Assembly: GCA_947650875.1 (NCBI GenBank)
Contig: CANSXE010000007.1
Coordinates: 1-43,613, forward strand
Direction of reading: 5' to 3'
DNA: 43,613 bases
Origin: an uncultured Bacillota bacterium
GTDB taxonomy: Bacteria > Bacillota > Clostridia > Oscillospirales > Oscillospiraceae
The position numbers and the translations under genes were made by a program. Every line of letters starts with the position of its first letter. Positions within the stretch are counted from its first letter, which is position 1. The notes beneath the pieces are model-generated. The model saw only the letters and a program-made list of their open reading frames with translations, was not told the origin of the DNA and did not search any database. Shown piece after piece: positions 25,604-33,214 of the stretch.

Positions 25604-25625
25604 ATAAAACAGCAGCTTGACGGAT

Positions 25626-27047
25626 TTACCGGTCCTTGCGGCTGACCCGCTTGATCTGGCCCCAGGTCCCCTTGTTTTTCCGATAGCTTAACAGGGCGTT
25701 GAGCCGGATGAAGTCAAAGACGAACCGGAAGAAGACATTTTCAATCAGGCACATGATGCAGGCCCGCAGGACATCCTGAAAGCTGATGCGGAGGTTTTGG
25801 GTGTAGATGCGCTGGAAAAAGGCGGTGATGGTGAGGATGGAGCTGTAGAGGGCGAAGAGCAGATAGAACCGGAGGACAAACTGCCAGTCCAGCGGCCCCA
25901 CGATGGCGGTGGCGAAGGTGGCGGCCAGGCCCACCACCTCGATAATCGGGGAGTACAGCTCGTAGAGCAGATAGTAGAGGTAGGAGACGGTGCCCACCAT
26001 GCCGAAGCGGGATTTCAGGAACATGAAGCGGTACCGGGTGATGCACTGAAACAGACCGATGTGCCACCGGCGGCGCTGCTTGAAGAGGTCCCGCAGGGAG
26101 GAGGGGGCCTGGCTCCAGCAGACGGCGTTGGGCTCATAGCGGATGGAGTAGCGGGTCATGTTGTTCCGGCAGTAGACGTGGAGCTTGGCCACCAGTTCCA
26201 TGTCCTCCCCCAGCACGTCGGTGGCGTAGCCGCCGGCGGCGATGACCACGCTCTTTCTGAACAGGCCGAAGGCCCCGGAGATGATGAGGTTGCCGTTGAA
26301 GCCGTCCAGCAGGATGCGGGAAGCAAGAAAGGAGCGGTCGTACTCCATGACCTGCATACTGATCAGGAAGTTCCAGGGCAGGTGGTAGGGGATGGGCTGG
26401 CCGGGGTCCCGCTGGACGTGGGGGTCGAAGTCGATGCACTGGGCCACCCGGACCAGGCCGCCCACGGCCACCACGTTGTCGTCCTCCATAACGGGCTGGA
26501 CGATGCGCTCCAGGGAGTCCCGCTGGAGGACGGAGTCGGCGTCGATGCACAGGAAGTAGGGGTATTGGGAGATGTTGATGCCTGCGTTCAGGGCGTCTCC
26601 CTTGCCGCCGTTCTCCTTTTGCAGCAAAGTCAGCTGAATTTGGGTGCCGGGGGCCTCGTAGATGGCACGGATATCTTTACAGGGGATACTACGGCGGATG
26701 GGGCGGCTGACCTTCTGCATATGAAAGTAGTCGATGAGCACCTGGATGGTGTTGTCGGTGGAGCCGTCGTCCACCACAACGATCTCGTAGAGCTGATAGT
26801 CCAGTTCCAGCAGGGATTTTACGCTGTCCAGGATGGTGACCTCCTCGTTGTGGGCGGGCACCAGGACGGAGACGGGGAAGTAAAAGTTGTGCTTCAGCTC
26901 GTTTTTGATGGTGCGCATCCGGTCCGCCTGGTAGAGATGCCAGGCCCCGATGGCCACCGACAGGAGGAGGTAGGAGGCGTAGAGCAGCAAATAGAGGAGG
27001 AAAAATGTCTCTACTACGATCAGGGCATTTTGGACAAACTCGCTCAT
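25626..27047 (-). CDS. Membrane family-2 glycosyltransferase, processive polysaccharide synthase type
   Basis: The 473-residue protein has an N-terminal transmembrane segment (about 8-32), a cytoplasmic GT2 domain and about three C-terminal transmembrane segments (about 345-440). Synthase motifs are present in order: PVSVLVPAHNEE and VVVDDGSTDNT (first Asp), FLCIDADSVLQ (DxD), VLGEDMELV (catalytic Glu-Asp) and KQRRRWHIG (QxxRW). This is the arrangement of PgaC, hyaluronan and cellulose synthases, which polymerise a sugar and push the chain across the membrane. It overlaps the upstream anchored glycosidase-like gene by 4 bases (ATGA). It is the only polymerase-like enzyme in the operon, so it probably makes the glycan the others act on. 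Sugar identity is unknown. Confidence 0.88.
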   Translation of the reverse strand: MSEFVQNALIVVETFFLLYLLLYASYLLLSVAIGAWHLYQADRMRTIKNELKHNFYFPVSVLVPAHNEEVTILDSVKSLLELDYQLYEIVVVDDGSTDNTIQVLIDYFHMQKVSRPIRRSIPCKDIRAIYEAPGTQIQLTLLQKENGGKGDALNAGINISQYPYFLCIDADSVLQRDSLERIVQPVMEDDNVVAVGGLVRVAQCIDFDPHVQRDPGQPIPYHLPWNFLISMQVMEYDRSFLASRILLDGFNGNLIISGAFGLFRKSVVIAAGGYATDVLGEDMELVAKLHVYCRNNMTRYSIRYEPNAVCWSQAPSSLRDLFKQRRRWHIGLFQCITRYRFMFLKSRFGMVGTVSYLYYLLYELYSPIIEVVGLAATFATAIVGPLDWQFVLRFYLLFALYSSILTITAFFQRIYTQNLRISFQDVLRACIMCLIENVFFRFVFDFIRLNALLSYRKNKGTWGQIKRVSRKDR

Positions 27048-29476
27048 ACCGCCATTGGTACCTCGCTTTCCTCCTTCTCCGCCTGGCCCCCCAGGATGTA
27101 TCTCAGCATTTCGGCGGCGTAGGGGTCGCCGGAGAAGCCGTCCCTAGACTCCTCCCAGGTGCCGCCCAGGGTTTTCAGGGAGCGGGCGGCGTTCTGCCGG
27201 ACATGCCAGTTGGGGCTGCGCAGGGCGTCCTGAAGGGCCTGCTGGGTCTCGCCCCCGGGGTAGGAGGCCAGGGAGGAGGCCGCCGCGATGGACAGCTCGC
27301 CCCGCCCTTCCGTCTCCCCCTTCAGCAGCAGGAGAAGCATGGGCTGGGCCCCGGGAATGGCGTGGCGGCGGAAGTAGCGCACCAGGGTGAACCGGGTCTC
27401 GACGGGCAGCTCCTCCAGCTCCAGCTCCCGGAGAAAGTCCTCGGCAAAGCCGTCGCCGGTCAGGGAGTCGGCAAAGCGGACGACGCCCACCCAGAGGGCT
27501 TTGATCTGTTTCAATTCCACGCCGTAATACTGATAGTAGTCCCGGTGGACCCCCATGGCGGCGGGGTCGCCCACGTTCAGAAGGAGCCAGGGCAGGCGGA
27601 TCTCCACGCAGTTTGCGCCGAAGCAGAAGTCCGCCAGGGAGTTGTATTGGTCTGAGGTGCTGTCTCCGTTGCCGTGGACCAGCCTTCCGGTCTCCCAGAC
27701 CCCCAGGCGCTGGAGGGCCCGGGTCTCCGGGGTCAGATTGTCCACCAGCAGGGGGTTCCGCACCGCCATGCCCAGGGGCACAAAGCGGCCGCTGTTCTGG
27801 GTCGGAGGATCGTAGAAGGGGTCCTCCCCCTCCGTCTCAAACAGGAAGCGCTCCCGCAGGGGGTCACAGCGCTCCTGTACCAGCAGGCGGGTGTTGTCCG
27901 TCCCGTCCAGGCAGAGGAGGAGGTCGGCCTCCCGCTGAAAGGTCAGGGCGGGGCTGAGACAGACGGCGCTGCCCACCTCGGGGGAGAGGTCCAGGGGGAG
28001 ATATACCCGCTCCTCCCGGCTGACGCCCTCCAGCAGCAGATACAGCCCCTCCGCGTCATACCGGGCGGACAGACGCAGGCCGTCCCGCTCCAGAAGCAGG
28101 TCTCCCTCGGACCACTCGCCGGGACTGCCATCCAACACGCAGGCGTCCTCCGTCCCCGGCTCAAAGGCCATCAGGCCATAGTTCTGGCCCTCCGACTGGA
28201 GATCATGCCAGAGGTAGTGCCCGGTGGAGACGGCGGCAAAGGCGGTGTTCCAGCTCGTCCGCTCCCACTCGTCCTGCCAGGTGGACAGGAAGCCCCCGGC
28301 CCAGCCGCTGGACTCCAGGGCCTGACTGACCTCCACAAGCCGCTGGCCCTGGGTCCTCTCGTCGTTGGGGGATGTGTTCAGGAGGGTGGCCCCCCGGCTG
28401 GAGGAGAAGCCGTAGCCCGCCGCGATTACCGGCATGGTGTGGTACCGGCTGAGCAGCTCCAGGTAGCCGCCGTAGAGTTCCTGGGTGGGCAGTCCCTTCA
28501 GAAGGGGGCCAAGGGCCTGTTCCTGTCCGGCGGAGAGCCGGACGGAGAAGCTGTCGCAGAAGTCATAGAGCTGGTAGGCGGCGAAATAGCCCGCCACCAT
28601 GGAGGGGAGGGGGACCACGTGCTCCGGGTCGGTCCGGGCGTGTTTGGACAGCTGACGGGCGTAGACCTCCTCATACTCCAAAAAGTCATGGGAGGGGTCG
28701 CAGAGGAAGCCGATGGGCCGCTGCACGCCGTATTTGTCGGTCTCATAGCGGGTGATCCCGTCCATGACCCGGGTCATCACCGCTTCGAAGGGGGTGGCAT
28801 CCGCCGTGGTCTGGAAATAGGTCCCCTGGTAGACGCCGGAGTGGAGGGGGCTGTGGTCGGTGTAGGAGATGGTGTCCGGGGACCACTCAGTCCCCACCAG
28901 AAAGCCCACTGTCCAGGGGGAGACGTCCTTCCGGTAGGAGCTGCCGTCCCGGGTCATTCCGCCGGCCTGGTTTTTCCGCCCGTGCACCACGTCCACCATA
29001 CCCCTGCCGTTTCGCAGCAGGGCGTCCAGGAAGCCCTTGTCATAGGCGTCTTTGGAGCCGAAGCCCGCGCTGTCGCTCACGCCGAAGCCCTGAAGGAGGT
29101 ACAGGGGCTGGGTATGGCCGGTGTTGTAGGCGTAGAGGGCGTTGTAGAAGTCGTCGTCCAGGACGGTGGCCGTCCGGACGGCGTTGGCCCCCATCTCCCC
29201 GATGGCCTCCAGCCAGCGGAGATAGTCCTCCTTTGTGGGGGCGTAGGCGGTGGCGTAGTGCCCCGGGAGGGAGGAGGATATGTCCACCCCCCGCAGGAGC
29301 ATCGGGTCATAGCTCTGCCCGTTCCAGCGCTGGAACGATGGGCCTTCCGTCTGGAAGGGGACGGAAGGCCCATACCGCCCTCCGAGCCGCAGATAAAAGC
29401 CGCCATAGAATACGGACAGATAGAGCCCGACTCCCATAACCAGCAGCAGCACCGCCGCCGCTATGAATTTTTTCAT
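27044..29476 (-). CDS. Membrane-anchored glycosidase-like protein with HEAT-like C-terminus
   Basis: The 810-residue protein has an N-terminal membrane anchor (about 4-27) and an extracytoplasmic TIM-barrel-like domain (about 60-430): LLRGVDISSSLPGHYA, WLEAIGEMGANAVRTATVLD, GFLVGTEWSPDTISYTD, RPIGFLCDPSHDF, and GFLSTWQDEWERTSW, which has the look of glycoside hydrolase barrels with acidic residues at strand ends. A beta-rich region follows (about 450-660). The C-terminus (about 700-780) has HEAT-like helices (GRGELSIAAASSLASYPG, NWHVRQNAARSLKTLGG). No exact glycosidase family is recognised. It probably trims or shapes the exported polymer. GGAGG lies 5 bases before the ATG, and the stop overlaps the GT2 start. 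Confidence 0.68.
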   Translation of the reverse strand: MKKFIAAAVLLLVMGVGLYLSVFYGGFYLRLGGRYGPSVPFQTEGPSFQRWNGQSYDPMLLRGVDISSSLPGHYATAYAPTKEDYLRWLEAIGEMGANAVRTATVLDDDFYNALYAYNTGHTQPLYLLQGFGVSDSAGFGSKDAYDKGFLDALLRNGRGMVDVVHGRKNQAGGMTRDGSSYRKDVSPWTVGFLVGTEWSPDTISYTDHSPLHSGVYQGTYFQTTADATPFEAVMTRVMDGITRYETDKYGVQRPIGFLCDPSHDFLEYEEVYARQLSKHARTDPEHVVPLPSMVAGYFAAYQLYDFCDSFSVRLSAGQEQALGPLLKGLPTQELYGGYLELLSRYHTMPVIAAGYGFSSSRGATLLNTSPNDERTQGQRLVEVSQALESSGWAGGFLSTWQDEWERTSWNTAFAAVSTGHYLWHDLQSEGQNYGLMAFEPGTEDACVLDGSPGEWSEGDLLLERDGLRLSARYDAEGLYLLLEGVSREERVYLPLDLSPEVGSAVCLSPALTFQREADLLLCLDGTDNTRLLVQERCDPLRERFLFETEGEDPFYDPPTQNSGRFVPLGMAVRNPLLVDNLTPETRALQRLGVWETGRLVHGNGDSTSDQYNSLADFCFGANCVEIRLPWLLLNVGDPAAMGVHRDYYQYYGVELKQIKALWVGVVRFADSLTGDGFAEDFLRELELEELPVETRFTLVRYFRRHAIPGAQPMLLLLLKGETEGRGELSIAAASSLASYPGGETQQALQDALRSPNWHVRQNAARSLKTLGGTWEESRDGFSGDPYAAEMLRYILGGQAEKEESEVPMAV

Positions 29477-29489
29477 TCAAGCCTCCTGT

Positions 29490-31031
29490 CTAATGCACGC
29501 GCTGATTGGCAGAGTAGGAGGGGTGGCAGTACTGCCGCAGGGAGTCGATATGCGCATCCATCCACTGGCCCCGGTCTACGATGTAGTCCATCATCCATTC
29601 CACCGCCTCCTCATAGCTGGAGGGGTTCACGTCCCGCGAAGTGTCGTCACTGCCGATGGAGGGGAAACGGCGTTCCTGGTCGCCCACCTGATTTGGATCG
29701 AAGGTATAGCCCCAGACGGAGAAGTTCCGGTCCACAGCGCTGCCCAGCCAGGTTTCGATGTCCTTTTGATAGGCCAGAAGGTATTCCTCAGAGAGGACGC
29801 CCTGCCGCAGCTGACGGTAGCAGGAGATCACCCGCTCCACAAAGTCCTCGTCCTGCATCAGCTTGGCATACCAGCCCCGCTGGGAGAGAAGAAATCCCCG
29901 GCTGGAAATGGGCCGAAAAAAGTTGTCAAAGGCGTTGTTAAAGTCCCACACCGGCCCGATGGACAGCTTTCCCCGGGCGTCCCGATAGAAATAGGTGGAA
30001 TTTAGAAAGGTGTCATTGATCCCGAAGAACTCCATCAGAATGTAGTAGTTGACAAGGGAGTCCATGTCCAGCTCCTGTCTCCAGAGGTCGGAGCCGTTCA
30101 GCATCTCGGAAGAGTAGAGTATGCGCTCTGCTTCATTGTAATCCGCCTGCACATAGTCCTGCACCTGTTTGGTTTGCTTTGCCAACCCTGGATATAGCAG
30201 CTCCAGGCGCCGCCCCGGCTCCATCCGGTAGGAGTAGAAGCTGAAATTGTTCAGTACCTTCTCCGGATTGGTAAAGGGCTCAATTCGGACCAAATAGCTC
30301 AGTACCGGGTCCCCCGGCTCGTATTTCCGCAGAGCAAGCCGGTTTTCGTCTACGTCGATGGTCTCCATCAGGAGGTAGACCCCTTGGTACTCTCCGTCTA
30401 AAATCAGTTCGCAGAAGCGGGTATCCGGCACCCAGGTCCCCATCACCTCCGCTGAGAGATTCATGCACATGTAGTTGCGCATCAGGGTCTTGTCCAGAAA
30501 GGGGCCGTGGAGGGCCCACTCTTTACCGCTATTCATGCCCAGCAGCTCCATCCGCCGGTTGTCCAGGGGGTCGTCGTCCTTTACCGTTTTCAGGAGGAAA
30601 TTGCCCTTGGTGAACCACCGGGAGCTGTTGCCGCGGTAGCGGAACAGGGCGGTCCCGCCGGCGTCGGCGGGGTCGTCCTGGTGGTGCCAGACACCCTCTG
30701 TGGAGACTGTGGAAAACCGGACCAGAATCTCCTCTTCGCCGTTGTCCCCGGTGAGGTAGTCTGCGGTGTTCTCGGCCGCCCTTGCAGAGGGCCGGCCTGG
30801 AATGGTCTGGCCCCCGGTTTCAATGCGAATGATGGGCAGATGGGTACACAGCTCCGCTCCGCCTGAGCAGGAGGGACAGGGGCCCAGGTCCGCCTCGGAG
30901 GGCTGGGACAGGTGCTGTTGATACCGGTGGACGCCGGTCCGGCCCTCCATGTCCTGAAACAGGACGGAAAGCAGCAGCACGCATACCGCCATGCCCGCCA
31001 TGACTGCAACGCTTCGACGCATGGCCGTCAC
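29490..31031 (-). CDS. CotH-family secreted kinase-like protein
   Basis: The 513-residue protein has an N-terminal membrane anchor (about 8-26). The rest should be extracytoplasmic and matches the CotH family, atypical protein kinases first known from spore coats. Visible blocks are FRYRGNSSRWFTKGNF, the NSGKEWALHGPFLDKTLMRNY block, GEYQGVYLLMETIDVDENRL, and GPVWDFNNAFDNFF, which aligns with the family's metal-binding WDxDxxF. The second acidic residue is Asn here, so activity should be tested. A CPSCSGGAELC motif at about 52-62 could form a disulfide or bind metal. The GTG at 31031 overlaps the upstream stop by 4 bases; ATG 31022 is an alternative. It could phosphorylate a protein or the exported glycan. 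Confidence 0.85.
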   Translation of the reverse strand: MTAMRRSVAVMAGMAVCVLLLSVLFQDMEGRTGVHRYQQHLSQPSEADLGPCPSCSGGAELCTHLPIIRIETGGQTIPGRPSARAAENTADYLTGDNGEEEILVRFSTVSTEGVWHHQDDPADAGGTALFRYRGNSSRWFTKGNFLLKTVKDDDPLDNRRMELLGMNSGKEWALHGPFLDKTLMRNYMCMNLSAEVMGTWVPDTRFCELILDGEYQGVYLLMETIDVDENRLALRKYEPGDPVLSYLVRIEPFTNPEKVLNNFSFYSYRMEPGRRLELLYPGLAKQTKQVQDYVQADYNEAERILYSSEMLNGSDLWRQELDMDSLVNYYILMEFFGINDTFLNSTYFYRDARGKLSIGPVWDFNNAFDNFFRPISSRGFLLSQRGWYAKLMQDEDFVERVISCYRQLRQGVLSEEYLLAYQKDIETWLGSAVDRNFSVWGYTFDPNQVGDQERRFPSIGSDDTSRDVNPSSYEEAVEWMMDYIVDRGQWMDAHIDSLRQYCHPSYSANQRVH

Positions 31032-31705
31032 CCGCTGATCTCGTCGCTCTGGGTCACGGTGTTCACATACTCGGTACCGCCCAGGGCGTACAGGGCGTCG
31101 GAGATGTCCACGTCCTTCTGATAGTTCATCTGCCAGACCTTCCGGGGCATCTCATAGATCAGCTCCACATGCTCCGGCGTGGTGTTGCGTACCCGGAGGA
31201 GAGCCCGCTGCTTGAAGTAGGAAAAGACGATCCGCTCCATGTCCCCGCTGCGGTCCTTGGACCCCCGGATGATCAGCAGGATGCGGTTCTCGTTCCGCAC
31301 CCGGCCCAGGGCGAGGAGCACTACAAAGACCATCGCCGTGCCCACGCCGGCTACCAGATAGTCCCCCACGCCGCAGCAGATGCCCACGATAATGGTCCAG
31401 AATATGTAGGCGGTGTCCCGGGAGTCCTTGATAGCTGTTCGGAAGCGGACGATGGACAGCGCGCCCACCATGCCCAGGGACAGGGCGATGTTGTTGCCGA
31501 TGACGGTCATCACCGTGGCGGTCAGTATGGTGAGGGACACCAGGGACACGTTGAATTTTTTGCTGTAGGCCGTGCCCGCGTGGGTGTACCAGTAGGAGAT
31601 GTAGATGGCGGCGCTGAGCACCGCCGAGGCTGTGATGTGCAGCACAATCTCCTGTGTAGTCAGGGTTCCGCTCTCGGCCAGAAGCTGCGCGAGATACTCT
31701 CTCAT
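31028..31705 (-). CDS. DUF4956 polytopic membrane protein
   Basis: The 225-residue protein has about four transmembrane segments in its first half and the DUF4956 hallmark IALSLGMVGALSIVRFRTAIKD (about 75-96), followed by SRDTAYIFWTIIVGICCGVG. The C-terminal part (about 145-225) is soluble and predicted cytoplasmic. The molecular function of the family is not established, but it is frequently linked to genes for VTC domains and CotH proteins, as here. AAGGAG precedes the ATG; its stop overlaps the CotH start. It may form the membrane part of a polymerase or channel with the VTC-domain protein, which is inference. Confidence 0.88.
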   Translation of the reverse strand: MREYLAQLLAESGTLTTQEIVLHITASAVLSAAIYISYWYTHAGTAYSKKFNVSLVSLTILTATVMTVIGNNIALSLGMVGALSIVRFRTAIKDSRDTAYIFWTIIVGICCGVGDYLVAGVGTAMVFVVLLALGRVRNENRILLIIRGSKDRSGDMERIVFSYFKQRALLRVRNTTPEHVELIYEMPRKVWQMNYQKDVDISDALYALGGTEYVNTVTQSDEISG

Positions 31706-31718
31706 AGTCTGGGTCTCC

Positions 31719-32414
31719 TTAGAAGTAGAAATGTTTGCTGACCGTCCGGCTCAGGCAATATTTGCTGACTGAGAGCTCCCCGTTGGCCGCGCCGCTGAGC
31801 ATATCCTTGATGTAGCTCAGCAGGAAGCCGTTGTATTTGACCTCCAGCACCACTAGGGACTGGTCCTGAACAGGGTATTGGCAGAGATTGCTGTCGAAGA
31901 TGTTGAAATTGCTCTCGGTGGCAATGATGTGGTGGTCAAAGGTCACTCGGATTTTGTTCTCCCTGGCGATGAAGGCCCTCCGGCGGTACTCCACCACCGC
32001 CCGGGGGCGGTAGCAGTGGATGTTCATCACGGCGTAGCACTCCTGAGCCAGGGGCTCGGGACAGGCCAGCAGGCCGCTGTAATCCCCCCGGGTCAGGCGG
32101 ACGGCCTCCTCCCGGGGCAGGCGGAGGGACCGCTTCTTCTGCATCGCCCCCTCCTTCTGCTTTACCTCCAGCAGGGCGAAGGGGCTGTCCGGGCCGTAGC
32201 ACCGGAGCCGGATTTTTCGCCGGGTGGACAGGCCGTCCAGCTTCTCCTGAAAATCCCGGTCGTCCAGGGAGTCGAAGTAGAGGGAGCGGATGGGATAGCC
32301 GTCCCCCCAGTTGTGGGAGTCCTCCAGCATGAATTTGGCCAGATTGCCGCTGTGATAGTAGTAATCGGGCAGGCCGATGAGAAATTTTTTCTCCTGCCGC
32401 AGGACCACGTTCAC
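31719..32414 (-). CDS. VTC-domain (polyphosphate-polymerase-like) protein
   Basis: The 231-residue protein is a stand-alone VTC domain of the CYTH/triphosphate tunnel superfamily. The basic tunnel residues are visible in QEKKFLIGL, YPIRSLYFDSL, STRRKIRLRCYG, FALLEVKQK, MQKKRSLRL, ARENKIRVTFDHHI and VVLEVKYNGFLL. In yeast this domain of Vtc4 makes polyphosphate from ATP. The bacterial versions next to DUF4956 and CotH genes are uncharacterised as far as I know. No membrane segment is present, so it should act in the cytoplasm. GTG 32414 overlaps the upstream stop by 4 bases (GTGA). Confidence 0.9.
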   Translation of the reverse strand: MNVVLRQEKKFLIGLPDYYYHSGNLAKFMLEDSHNWGDGYPIRSLYFDSLDDRDFQEKLDGLSTRRKIRLRCYGPDSPFALLEVKQKEGAMQKKRSLRLPREEAVRLTRGDYSGLLACPEPLAQECYAVMNIHCYRPRAVVEYRRRAFIARENKIRVTFDHHIIATESNFNIFDSNLCQYPVQDQSLVVLEVKYNGFLLSYIKDMLSGAANGELSVSKYCLSRTVSKHFYF

Positions 32415-33112
32415 CGGTTCAGCACCTCCCGCAGAGTTTTATAGTCGTGATAGGCGATGGAGACCACCTGATCCGGGTAGGCCCGCTTCATGCCGGAGAC
32501 GTAGCTGTCCATGATCCCGTCAGGGTTTTCGTCCCACTGGTCCAGGGTGTAGGGCTCCACGTCCAGCACGATGCCCGCCAGCCGGGGGACGGTCTCCCAG
32601 GAAGTGCCGTCCGCCTCCCGCCGCTCCAGAAATTTCCGGGCTATCCGGCGGTTGAAGGCCGCCGCTTCCTCCACCGCTTCGCACAGCCTGACCCCCTCCG
32701 GGTCCAGTCCCCAGGAGGGGTCCCCGGTGAGGTGGTAGACGGTGACGCCCTCCTCCATGGCCCGCTCCGCGAAGAGGGACATCTGCTCCTGCCGGCTGTT
32801 CTTGGTGGAGAAATGCTGATACAGCACCGTAGCCCCCCGGGCCTTCATCACGGAGAAAATTTCTCCGTCGGTCTGGTTGACCGTCTCGGCGCTCCAGGAG
32901 AACACTCCGGCGGTTCCGCCGGGGGGCGGGAGGAGTCCGGCGAGCTGGGATGCGTAGACCGACGAACCCAGAGACAACGCCGCGCACAAGCAGGTGAGTA
33001 TACAGCAGCCAAGCCCCAGAAGGGCCTTATAACAGCCCTGTCCCCGGAGGAAAAGCCGGCGGGGCAAGCTGAAAAAATGATCTATTTCATGTGCGTAAAT
33101 TATTTGCTGCAC
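32411..33112 (-). CDS. Membrane-anchored TIM-barrel-like protein, first gene of the glycan operon
   Basis: The 233-residue protein has a basic N-terminus (SLPRRLFLRG), one transmembrane segment (about 30-55) and an extracytoplasmic domain. The stretch VPRLAGIVLDVEPYTLDQWD has the Asp-x-Glu at a strand end that is typical of glycosidase-like TIM barrels. ARGATVLYQHF and VSIAYHDYK fit other strands. The domain is short for a complete barrel, and no family is recognised. The start is a GTG at 33112 with AAGGAAGG about 12 bases upstream, a slightly long spacing, so the start is uncertain. It overlaps the VTC gene by 4 bases. Confidence 0.6.
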   Translation of the reverse strand: MQQIIYAHEIDHFFSLPRRLFLRGQGCYKALLGLGCCILTCLCAALSLGSSVYASQLAGLLPPPGGTAGVFSWSAETVNQTDGEIFSVMKARGATVLYQHFSTKNSRQEQMSLFAERAMEEGVTVYHLTGDPSWGLDPEGVRLCEAVEEAAAFNRRIARKFLERREADGTSWETVPRLAGIVLDVEPYTLDQWDENPDGIMDSYVSGMKRAYPDQVVSIAYHDYKTLREVLNR

Positions 33113-33185
33113 ACAAAATACACATCCTTCCTTCTAAATCTTTGCGGAAGATTAACGAGAAAAATATTAATAATCCCCATGCTAT

Positions 33186-33214
33186 ATAATATACTATTTT
33201 GCTTTCAAAATCAA
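33186..33214 (-). promoter_or_regulatory. Probable promoter of the six-gene glycan operon
   Basis: On the minus strand TTGATT (33209-33214) and TATTAT (33186-33191) are 17 bases apart in a markedly AT-rich patch. The start would lie about 67 bases before the first gene. The remaining part of the 33113-33435 gap holds the kduI 3' hairpins and otherwise nothing I can name. Confidence 0.6.

Follow-up and report, generated by a model that had tools for sequence, protein, structure and literature searches.

In the open-access literature the gene set described below was found only as the uncharacterised NELoc-2 locus of Clostridium perfringens (CP4_0459-0468). The gene table of this locus, printed in 2010, has the same gene order and gives no known function (PMC2879425); the available text of a later study returns to the locus without assigning one (PMC11677781). 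Here we analyse a similarly ordered operon of an uncultured bacterium from the Oscillospiraceae (assembly GCA_947650875.1, contig CANSXE010000007.1, positions 1 to 43,613); this whole stretch of 43,613 nucleotides is referred to as the window. The operon occupies 33112..25626 on the minus strand and encodes a VTC-domain protein, a DUF4956 membrane protein and a CotH-family kinase (together, the triad), as well as a TIM-barrel protein, a HEAT protein and a family 2 glycosyltransferase (GT2). We consider it probable that the operon is a synthase-dependent exopolysaccharide system linked to cyclic di-GMP (c-di-GMP), to which a polyphosphate/kinase module has been added, and that the window carries an altered copy of it.

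NELoc-2 resembles this operon in gene order and in the similar lengths of the products (348 aa, VTC 232, a membrane-located protein of 226 aa, CotH 497, 685 aa, HEAT 377 and GT2 466). The likeness is one of printed order and lengths, and the VTC and membrane-protein genes are duplicated in NELoc-2 around a resolvase gene. Gram-positive Pel loci (PMC7112168; Streptococcus intermedius SIR_1591-1594, PMC12345266) also have VTC-DUF4956-CotH beside a polysaccharide synthase, and in S. intermedius a TIM-barrel hydrolase as well (PMC12345266). The Pel synthase is PelF with PelG, whereas in the window a PgaC-like GT2 is accompanied by barrel and HEAT proteins. The original prediction for this DNA, made by a model from the sequence, knew of no such combination, which does not hold given the 2010 table and the triads reported beside Pel loci. 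The clostridial cellulose synthase operon ccsZABHI (PMC7710045) shares the GT2 synthase, in ccs with a cognate glycoside hydrolase, but no triad is named for ccs in the available text of that paper. Locus L038 of our survey combines a GT2 synthase with the triad, as the window operon does. As points of difference, the window GT2 has no PilZ match, and there is no MBOAT or AlgX gene in the window operon. Finally, the catalytic domain of the yeast VTC complex (Vtc4, 3g3q) is homologous and has the mapped residues in common with the operon protein. Polyphosphate synthesis is coupled there to membrane transit (PMC9911596); in the operon the putative membrane partner is a separate DUF4956 protein, with a hypothetical part in transport.

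The features of the window operon are as follows.

33112-32411, minus strand: ORF1 (open reading frame 1), 233 aa with an N-terminal membrane helix, 105 aa shorter than in locus L037; no Pfam match
32414-31719, minus strand: VTC-domain protein (polyphosphate polymerase family), 231 aa; PF09359, 127 bits
31705-31028, minus strand: DUF4956 membrane protein, 225 aa, with an MgtC-like membrane region; PF16316, 56 bits
31031-29490, minus strand: kinase of the CotH family, 513 aa, with a single N-terminal membrane helix and predicted to be outside; PF08757, 180 bits
29476-27044, minus strand: barrel-HEAT fusion, 810 aa; Pfam matches only the C-terminal HEAT part
27047-25626, minus strand: membrane glycosyltransferase GT2, 473 aa, probably the polymer synthase; PF00535 (Glycos_transf_2), 103 bits
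25604-25567, minus strand: terminator-like hairpin of 17 pairs with a T-rich tail, just past the GT2 stop (consensus match only)
33179..33214, minus strand: promoter-like hexamers, two overlapping 9-of-12 matches upstream of ORF1 (consensus match only)

The six reading frames fill the interval; at three of their junctions they overlap by 4 bases and at the other two they are 13 bases apart, so that the coordinates bear out the predicted six-gene operon with overlaps of about 4 bases or gaps under 20 bases. The source genome is a draft (77% complete, 154 contigs) with one VTC and one CotH match.

A collection of species genomes was scanned with the barrel family: 173 stretches matched, 127 were confirmed and the best 80 were kept as operon loci. 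Gene order was counted in loci having more than 3 kb upstream and more than 2.6 kb downstream of the barrel gene, which excluded 13 of the 80. The order VTC, DUF4956, CotH, barrel, HEAT, GT2 is kept in 64 of the 67 remaining loci, even where barrel identity is just 33-35%; the exceptions are L072 and L084 (extended ORF calls) and L081, where the triad is absent. Taken pair by pair in gene order, adjacency holds in 72/73 (VTC-DUF4956), 74/74, 77/77, 79/79 and 76/78 (HEAT-GT2) loci. A relative of ORF1 occurs in 23 of the 80 operon loci and stands directly before VTC in 11. The usual core thus consists of VTC, DUF4956, CotH, barrel, HEAT and GT2, and ORF1 is outside it. Going by their labels, most carriers are gut Clostridia; the others include some Bacilli or Tenericutes and a bin labelled Gordonibacter. 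Among the named, presumably cultivable strains are Flavonifractor sp. An10, Neglectibacter timonensis SN17 and Oscillibacter sp. MSJ-31. A neighbourhood survey in which the GT2 and glycosidase-like genes are not inherited together with the triad had been named as a refutation of the original prediction. Among close relatives the survey favours the prediction, as the 64 loci show; at greater distance it speaks partly against it, since in nine divergent loci and L081 the fetched DNA has no VTC, DUF4956 or CotH.

The divergent loci come from an even sample of the order, 247 genomes, of which 21 (counting that of the window) matched the barrel. Nineteen regions were taken from 18 of the other 20 genomes; G255 and G330, having short barrel matches only, were excluded. 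Ten regions have a barrel scoring above 1,000 bits, and nine of these contain VTC, DUF4956 and CotH. The tenth, L158, has VTC and CotH fragments and no DUF4956 or HEAT match, adjoining long barrel and GT2 ORFs, a pattern that may mean that the triad is lost first. The nine other regions have a lower-scoring barrel, GT2 and HEAT (22-62 bits to the profile), and the triad was not found in their fetched DNA, although this absence is weak for L171 because it is a 7.9-kb contig. In L081 no triad lies within 10 kb upstream of barrel-HEAT-GT2. Since these nine loci and L081 have barrel-HEAT-GT2 without the triad, the halves of the operon are separable, and barrel-HEAT-GT2 is a synthase core able to exist with no phosphate genes beside it.

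The link to c-di-GMP comes from the relatives. For 75 of the 80 loci the genome was searched for a c-di-GMP-II riboswitch (L050, L071, L087, L113 and L118 were excluded). It was found, one copy each, in at least 7 of the 75 (5/40 and 2/35), these counts being lower bounds as 84 or 92 first-look candidates were scored in most genomes; the same search gave 0/14 in control genomes. For six of the seven riboswitches (L053, L063, L070, L075, L084, L092) the VTC gene starts 84-251 bp downstream. Flavonifractor sp. An10 is a carrier with a riboswitch and all six core genes. The seventh is in the genome of the triad-free L081, on a contig where no core operon gene was found. With a model built from five riboswitches, L092 was the sole further clear member in the 80 sources, window included.

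Moreover, a protein with an EAL domain is encoded on the same strand within 2.5 kb after the operon in 44 of 61 loci with room for it. These proteins, e.g. L075:15385-17235 and L097:14721-16583, consist of SBP_bac_3-like, degenerate GGDEF and EAL parts. The motif GG[DE][EQ]F is present in 0 of 45 of them, and a crude EAL-motif pattern, which misses variants such as EALSRW, matched 15 of 45. The downstream protein could serve as a receptor for c-di-GMP and not as an enzyme. Some of these proteins, about 616 aa long, were considered as second GT2s, which was rejected when Pfam gave EAL and weak GGDEF in the two checked. Judging by these elements, c-di-GMP appears to control the operon in a sizeable share of the relatives. 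In the window genome there are four GGDEF matches elsewhere.

The synthase motifs (D, D, GED and QxxRW) are present in 68-69 of 69 GT2 rows. The rows were restricted to 300-520 aa because the iterated GT2 profile drifted to the downstream proteins of about 616 aa. The motifs being intact, GT2 is well placed to be the polymer synthase that had been predicted. Three known systems were considered and rejected. The best NCBIfam model for GT2 is PgaC/IcaA, and membership among these poly-N-acetylglucosamine synthases fails at 152.9 bits against the equivalog cut-off of 422.3. Cellulose synthase (BcsA/CcsA) fails in the lack of a PilZ match and in the TIGR03030 score, 34.9 bits against 699.1. For a Pel locus, PelF (DUF3492) and PelG were unmatched by Pfam in the six operon proteins, and both were recovered in the control locus L130.

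Residues about 1-664 of the 810-aa fusion form an anchored barrel like those of clan GH-A, the remainder coming from the HEAT protein, and the barrel protein has the TIM-barrel fold of clan GH-A (GH157-like). E197 is present in the window (Glu in 75/82 rows), and position 354 is Gly where 61/82 rows have Glu. Position 354 we take to be that of the nucleophile, and the roles of both positions are our assumption from the motifs. Two anchored TIM-barrel-like proteins had been predicted. One of them, the anchored barrel, stands; the other, ORF1, is a fragment in the window, and its family comprises accessory proteins of about 290-390 aa with a conserved D-x-E motif. Searches of PDB sequences with the DUF4956, barrel and ORF1 families gave no credible match. 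The original prediction had overlooked the HEAT protein, the connection with c-di-GMP and the deletions in the window.

The VTC protein scores 127 bits to PF09359 against a curated cut-off of 23, aligns to yeast Vtc4 structures (3g3q) and has no predicted membrane helix. Residues R69, R71, K85, K94, R145, R156, E191, K193 and K218 are kept in 74/74 operon VTCs, window included; together with the lack of a helix this agrees with the cytoplasmic VTC domain suggested earlier. The roles of the mapped catalytic residues other than the Arg pair are presumed. By the alignment, R69 and R71 would correspond to the active-site Arg pair, two residues apart, that polyphosphate formation by fission yeast Vtc4 requires (PMC8749416). 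DUF4956, for which 70 of 74 relatives have 3-4 helices predicted, matches MgtC weakly (25.7 bits, below the cut-off of 31.4). CotH aligns to the CotH structure 5jd9, whose Asp residues match D340 (conserved in 77/78) and D363 (78/78). The retained Asp pair and the single N-terminal helix preceding the kinase domain fit a kinase placed outside the cell, as predicted. We presume that D340 is equivalent to D228 of Bacillus subtilis CotH, judging by numbering and spacing. The D228Q variant of the B. subtilis protein is termed inactive (PMC7821199).

The triad was also examined in a phylum sample, in which 21 of 149 genomes (own included) contained DUF4956, giving 25 loci besides that of the window. 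VTC lies within 300 bp of DUF4956 in 23 of the 25, and CotH within 1.3 kb in 16. Four of the CotH-bearing loci have a synthase: L133 (this operon), L130 (Pel), L132 (GT2 with DHHW) and L141 (GT4-GT2 fusion). In five loci (L127, L129, L131, L134, L136) a Cthe_2159 carbohydrate-binding protein replaces CotH after VTC-DUF4956. Among VTC loci of relatives, DUF4956 adjoins in 24/25 and CotH is near in 14/25. Over the loci surveyed, the partner genes are not adjacent in L034 (DUF4956 1.6 kb away), L140 (contig end) and L151 (order DUF4956-CotH-VTC). In L038 the triad is joined to PilZ-GT2, MBOAT and AlgX genes, with a GGDEF-HD gene upstream. VTC-DUF4956-CotH is hence a portable module, whose neighbours include Pel, PilZ-GT2/MBOAT and other glycosyltransferase genes. 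The statement that the arrangement is not found outside Pel (PMC12345266, available text) is contradicted by these loci.

When 59 VTC-DUF4956 pairs were placed in a tree, the 15 triads sampled from this operon formed one clade (97/99), which adjoins L038 and L132; long branches occur in other parts of the tree. The only sampled Pel triad (L130) and the GT4-GT2 triad branch elsewhere, which suggests that the association of the triad with polymer synthases arose more than once. Within the open-access literature searched, what is new is the breadth and order of the operon, its division into two modules, the additional partner synthases and the links to riboswitches and EAL proteins.

Gene order, conservation, catalytic residues and the c-di-GMP elements beside the relatives are read from the sequences; the identity of the polymer, its export, the flow of phosphate, the CotH target and c-di-GMP control in the window strain we infer. 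In the proposed scheme GT2 would polymerise a sugar nucleotide and pass the chain through the membrane; outside, the anchored GH-A-like barrel, which has a strand-rich tail, may bind, trim or guide it. The one-helix HEAT protein is a probable cytoplasmic scaffold. VTC would make polyphosphate from ATP, with DUF4956 as its putative membrane partner, and the external CotH could modify the polymer or a surface protein, or tune the amount of polymer. If so, this is a widespread and uncharacterised synthase-dependent exopolysaccharide system, mostly of gut Clostridia, now tied to c-di-GMP, and the operon makes the phosphate source of a secreted bacterial kinase a testable question. A stronger version, which we hold to be unlikely, has VTC-DUF4956 acting as a synthase-exporter that gives CotH its phosphate donor where ATP is scarce, so that the exopolysaccharide or its anchor would be (poly)phosphorylated outside under c-di-GMP control, the same module being fitted to at least four polymer-synthase loci.

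Several observations weigh against the exopolysaccharide system with an added phosphate module. The window has neither a riboswitch (Rfam gave none at the gathering score, otherwise weak and implausible matches) nor a downstream EAL gene, and the latter is absent from all ten testable loci sharing the window's layout with ORF1 directly before VTC. The window barrel does not have two catalytic Glu residues, Gly354 replacing the nucleophile-type one. No polymer-synthase gene was seen within 8 kb in 12 of the 16 CotH-bearing phylum loci (operon profiles, with Pfam on few neighbours), so the triad need not concern polysaccharide. Lastly, the polyphosphate-polymerase mutant SIR_1593 of S. intermedius is reported to have still aggregated and made Pel, and with this the predicted step from polyphosphate to polymer is not supported. 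In the same accounts the SIR_1592 mutant made more Pel and aggregated less, and the CotH-like mutant made less Pel. Such shifts in amount, which the polymerase mutant is reported to lack, would suit a triad that acts as a regulator: CotH phosphorylates a secreted or membrane protein (e.g. the barrel), DUF4956/VTC sense or buffer phosphate, and the amount or attachment of an unphosphorylated polymer is tuned. The weak MgtC match of DUF4956 and the regulation through phosphorylation suggested for Gram-positive Pel loci (PMC7112168) point the same way. Nevertheless, a polymerase with the mapped catalytic set in 74/74 proteins would be an odd sensor, and the triad also stands at loci where no polymer gene is seen; we regard this explanation as a serious but doubtful one. 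The triad might instead act on surface proteins (S-layer, spore or other) and adjoin the synthase for no other reason than that these proteins anchor the polymer. B. subtilis CotH does phosphorylate serine-rich coat proteins (PMC7821199), and the carbohydrate-binding protein replaces CotH in 5 of the 25 phylum loci, but the conserved operon contains no gene for a surface-protein substrate, and we find this explanation quite improbable.

The window copy itself was compared with L037, the nearest copy found, from the same genus (genome G007; about 59 kb in all with L037, L152 and L153). Likeness is limited to 25624-33158, in three blocks that are 86-92% identical at the DNA level. Between the blocks the window lacks about 0.8 kb present in L037, a loss that joins the barrel gene to the final ~140 residues of HEAT; the counterparts in L037 are two separate genes (714 and 367 aa), as are barrel and HEAT in 79/79 relative loci where both were found. 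Another 315 bp (105 residues) is missing from ORF1. Both deletion junctions sit at short direct repeats; the deletions may be biological or may be errors of assembly. We conclude that the operon is probably an altered copy, in which ORF1, and probably barrel and HEAT, are impaired or altered. It is rather unlikely, in our estimate, that decay or misassembly leaves this copy without any product and that the operon is functional only in relatives. The two deletions, the truncated ORF1 and the fusion lacking most of HEAT would fit this reading, as would the draft state of the genome and flanks unlike those of the closest copy. On the other hand, the reading frame stays open across both junctions, the catalytic residues of VTC, CotH and GT2 are intact, and the 86-92% identity extends over the length of the operon.

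The window flanks are not syntenic with G007. The operon of G007 is at 2.76 Mb, and the window flank genes, one per flank, map there to 3.65 Mb and 3.04 Mb, about 0.6 Mb apart; the KduI-like one is 95% identical. For this similarity confined to the operon, transfer, rearrangement or a chimeric contig are candidate readings.

Some further genes were seen at the triad-free loci. In six of the nine (L164, L166-L170) GT2 and HEAT are accompanied by three barrel relatives, among them one about 1,000 aa long. Both loci checked upstream (L164 and L166) encode an HD_5 protein there, and LuxC-like and LuxE-like genes (L172:11362-13787) lie upstream of another triad-free barrel-HEAT-GT2 locus.
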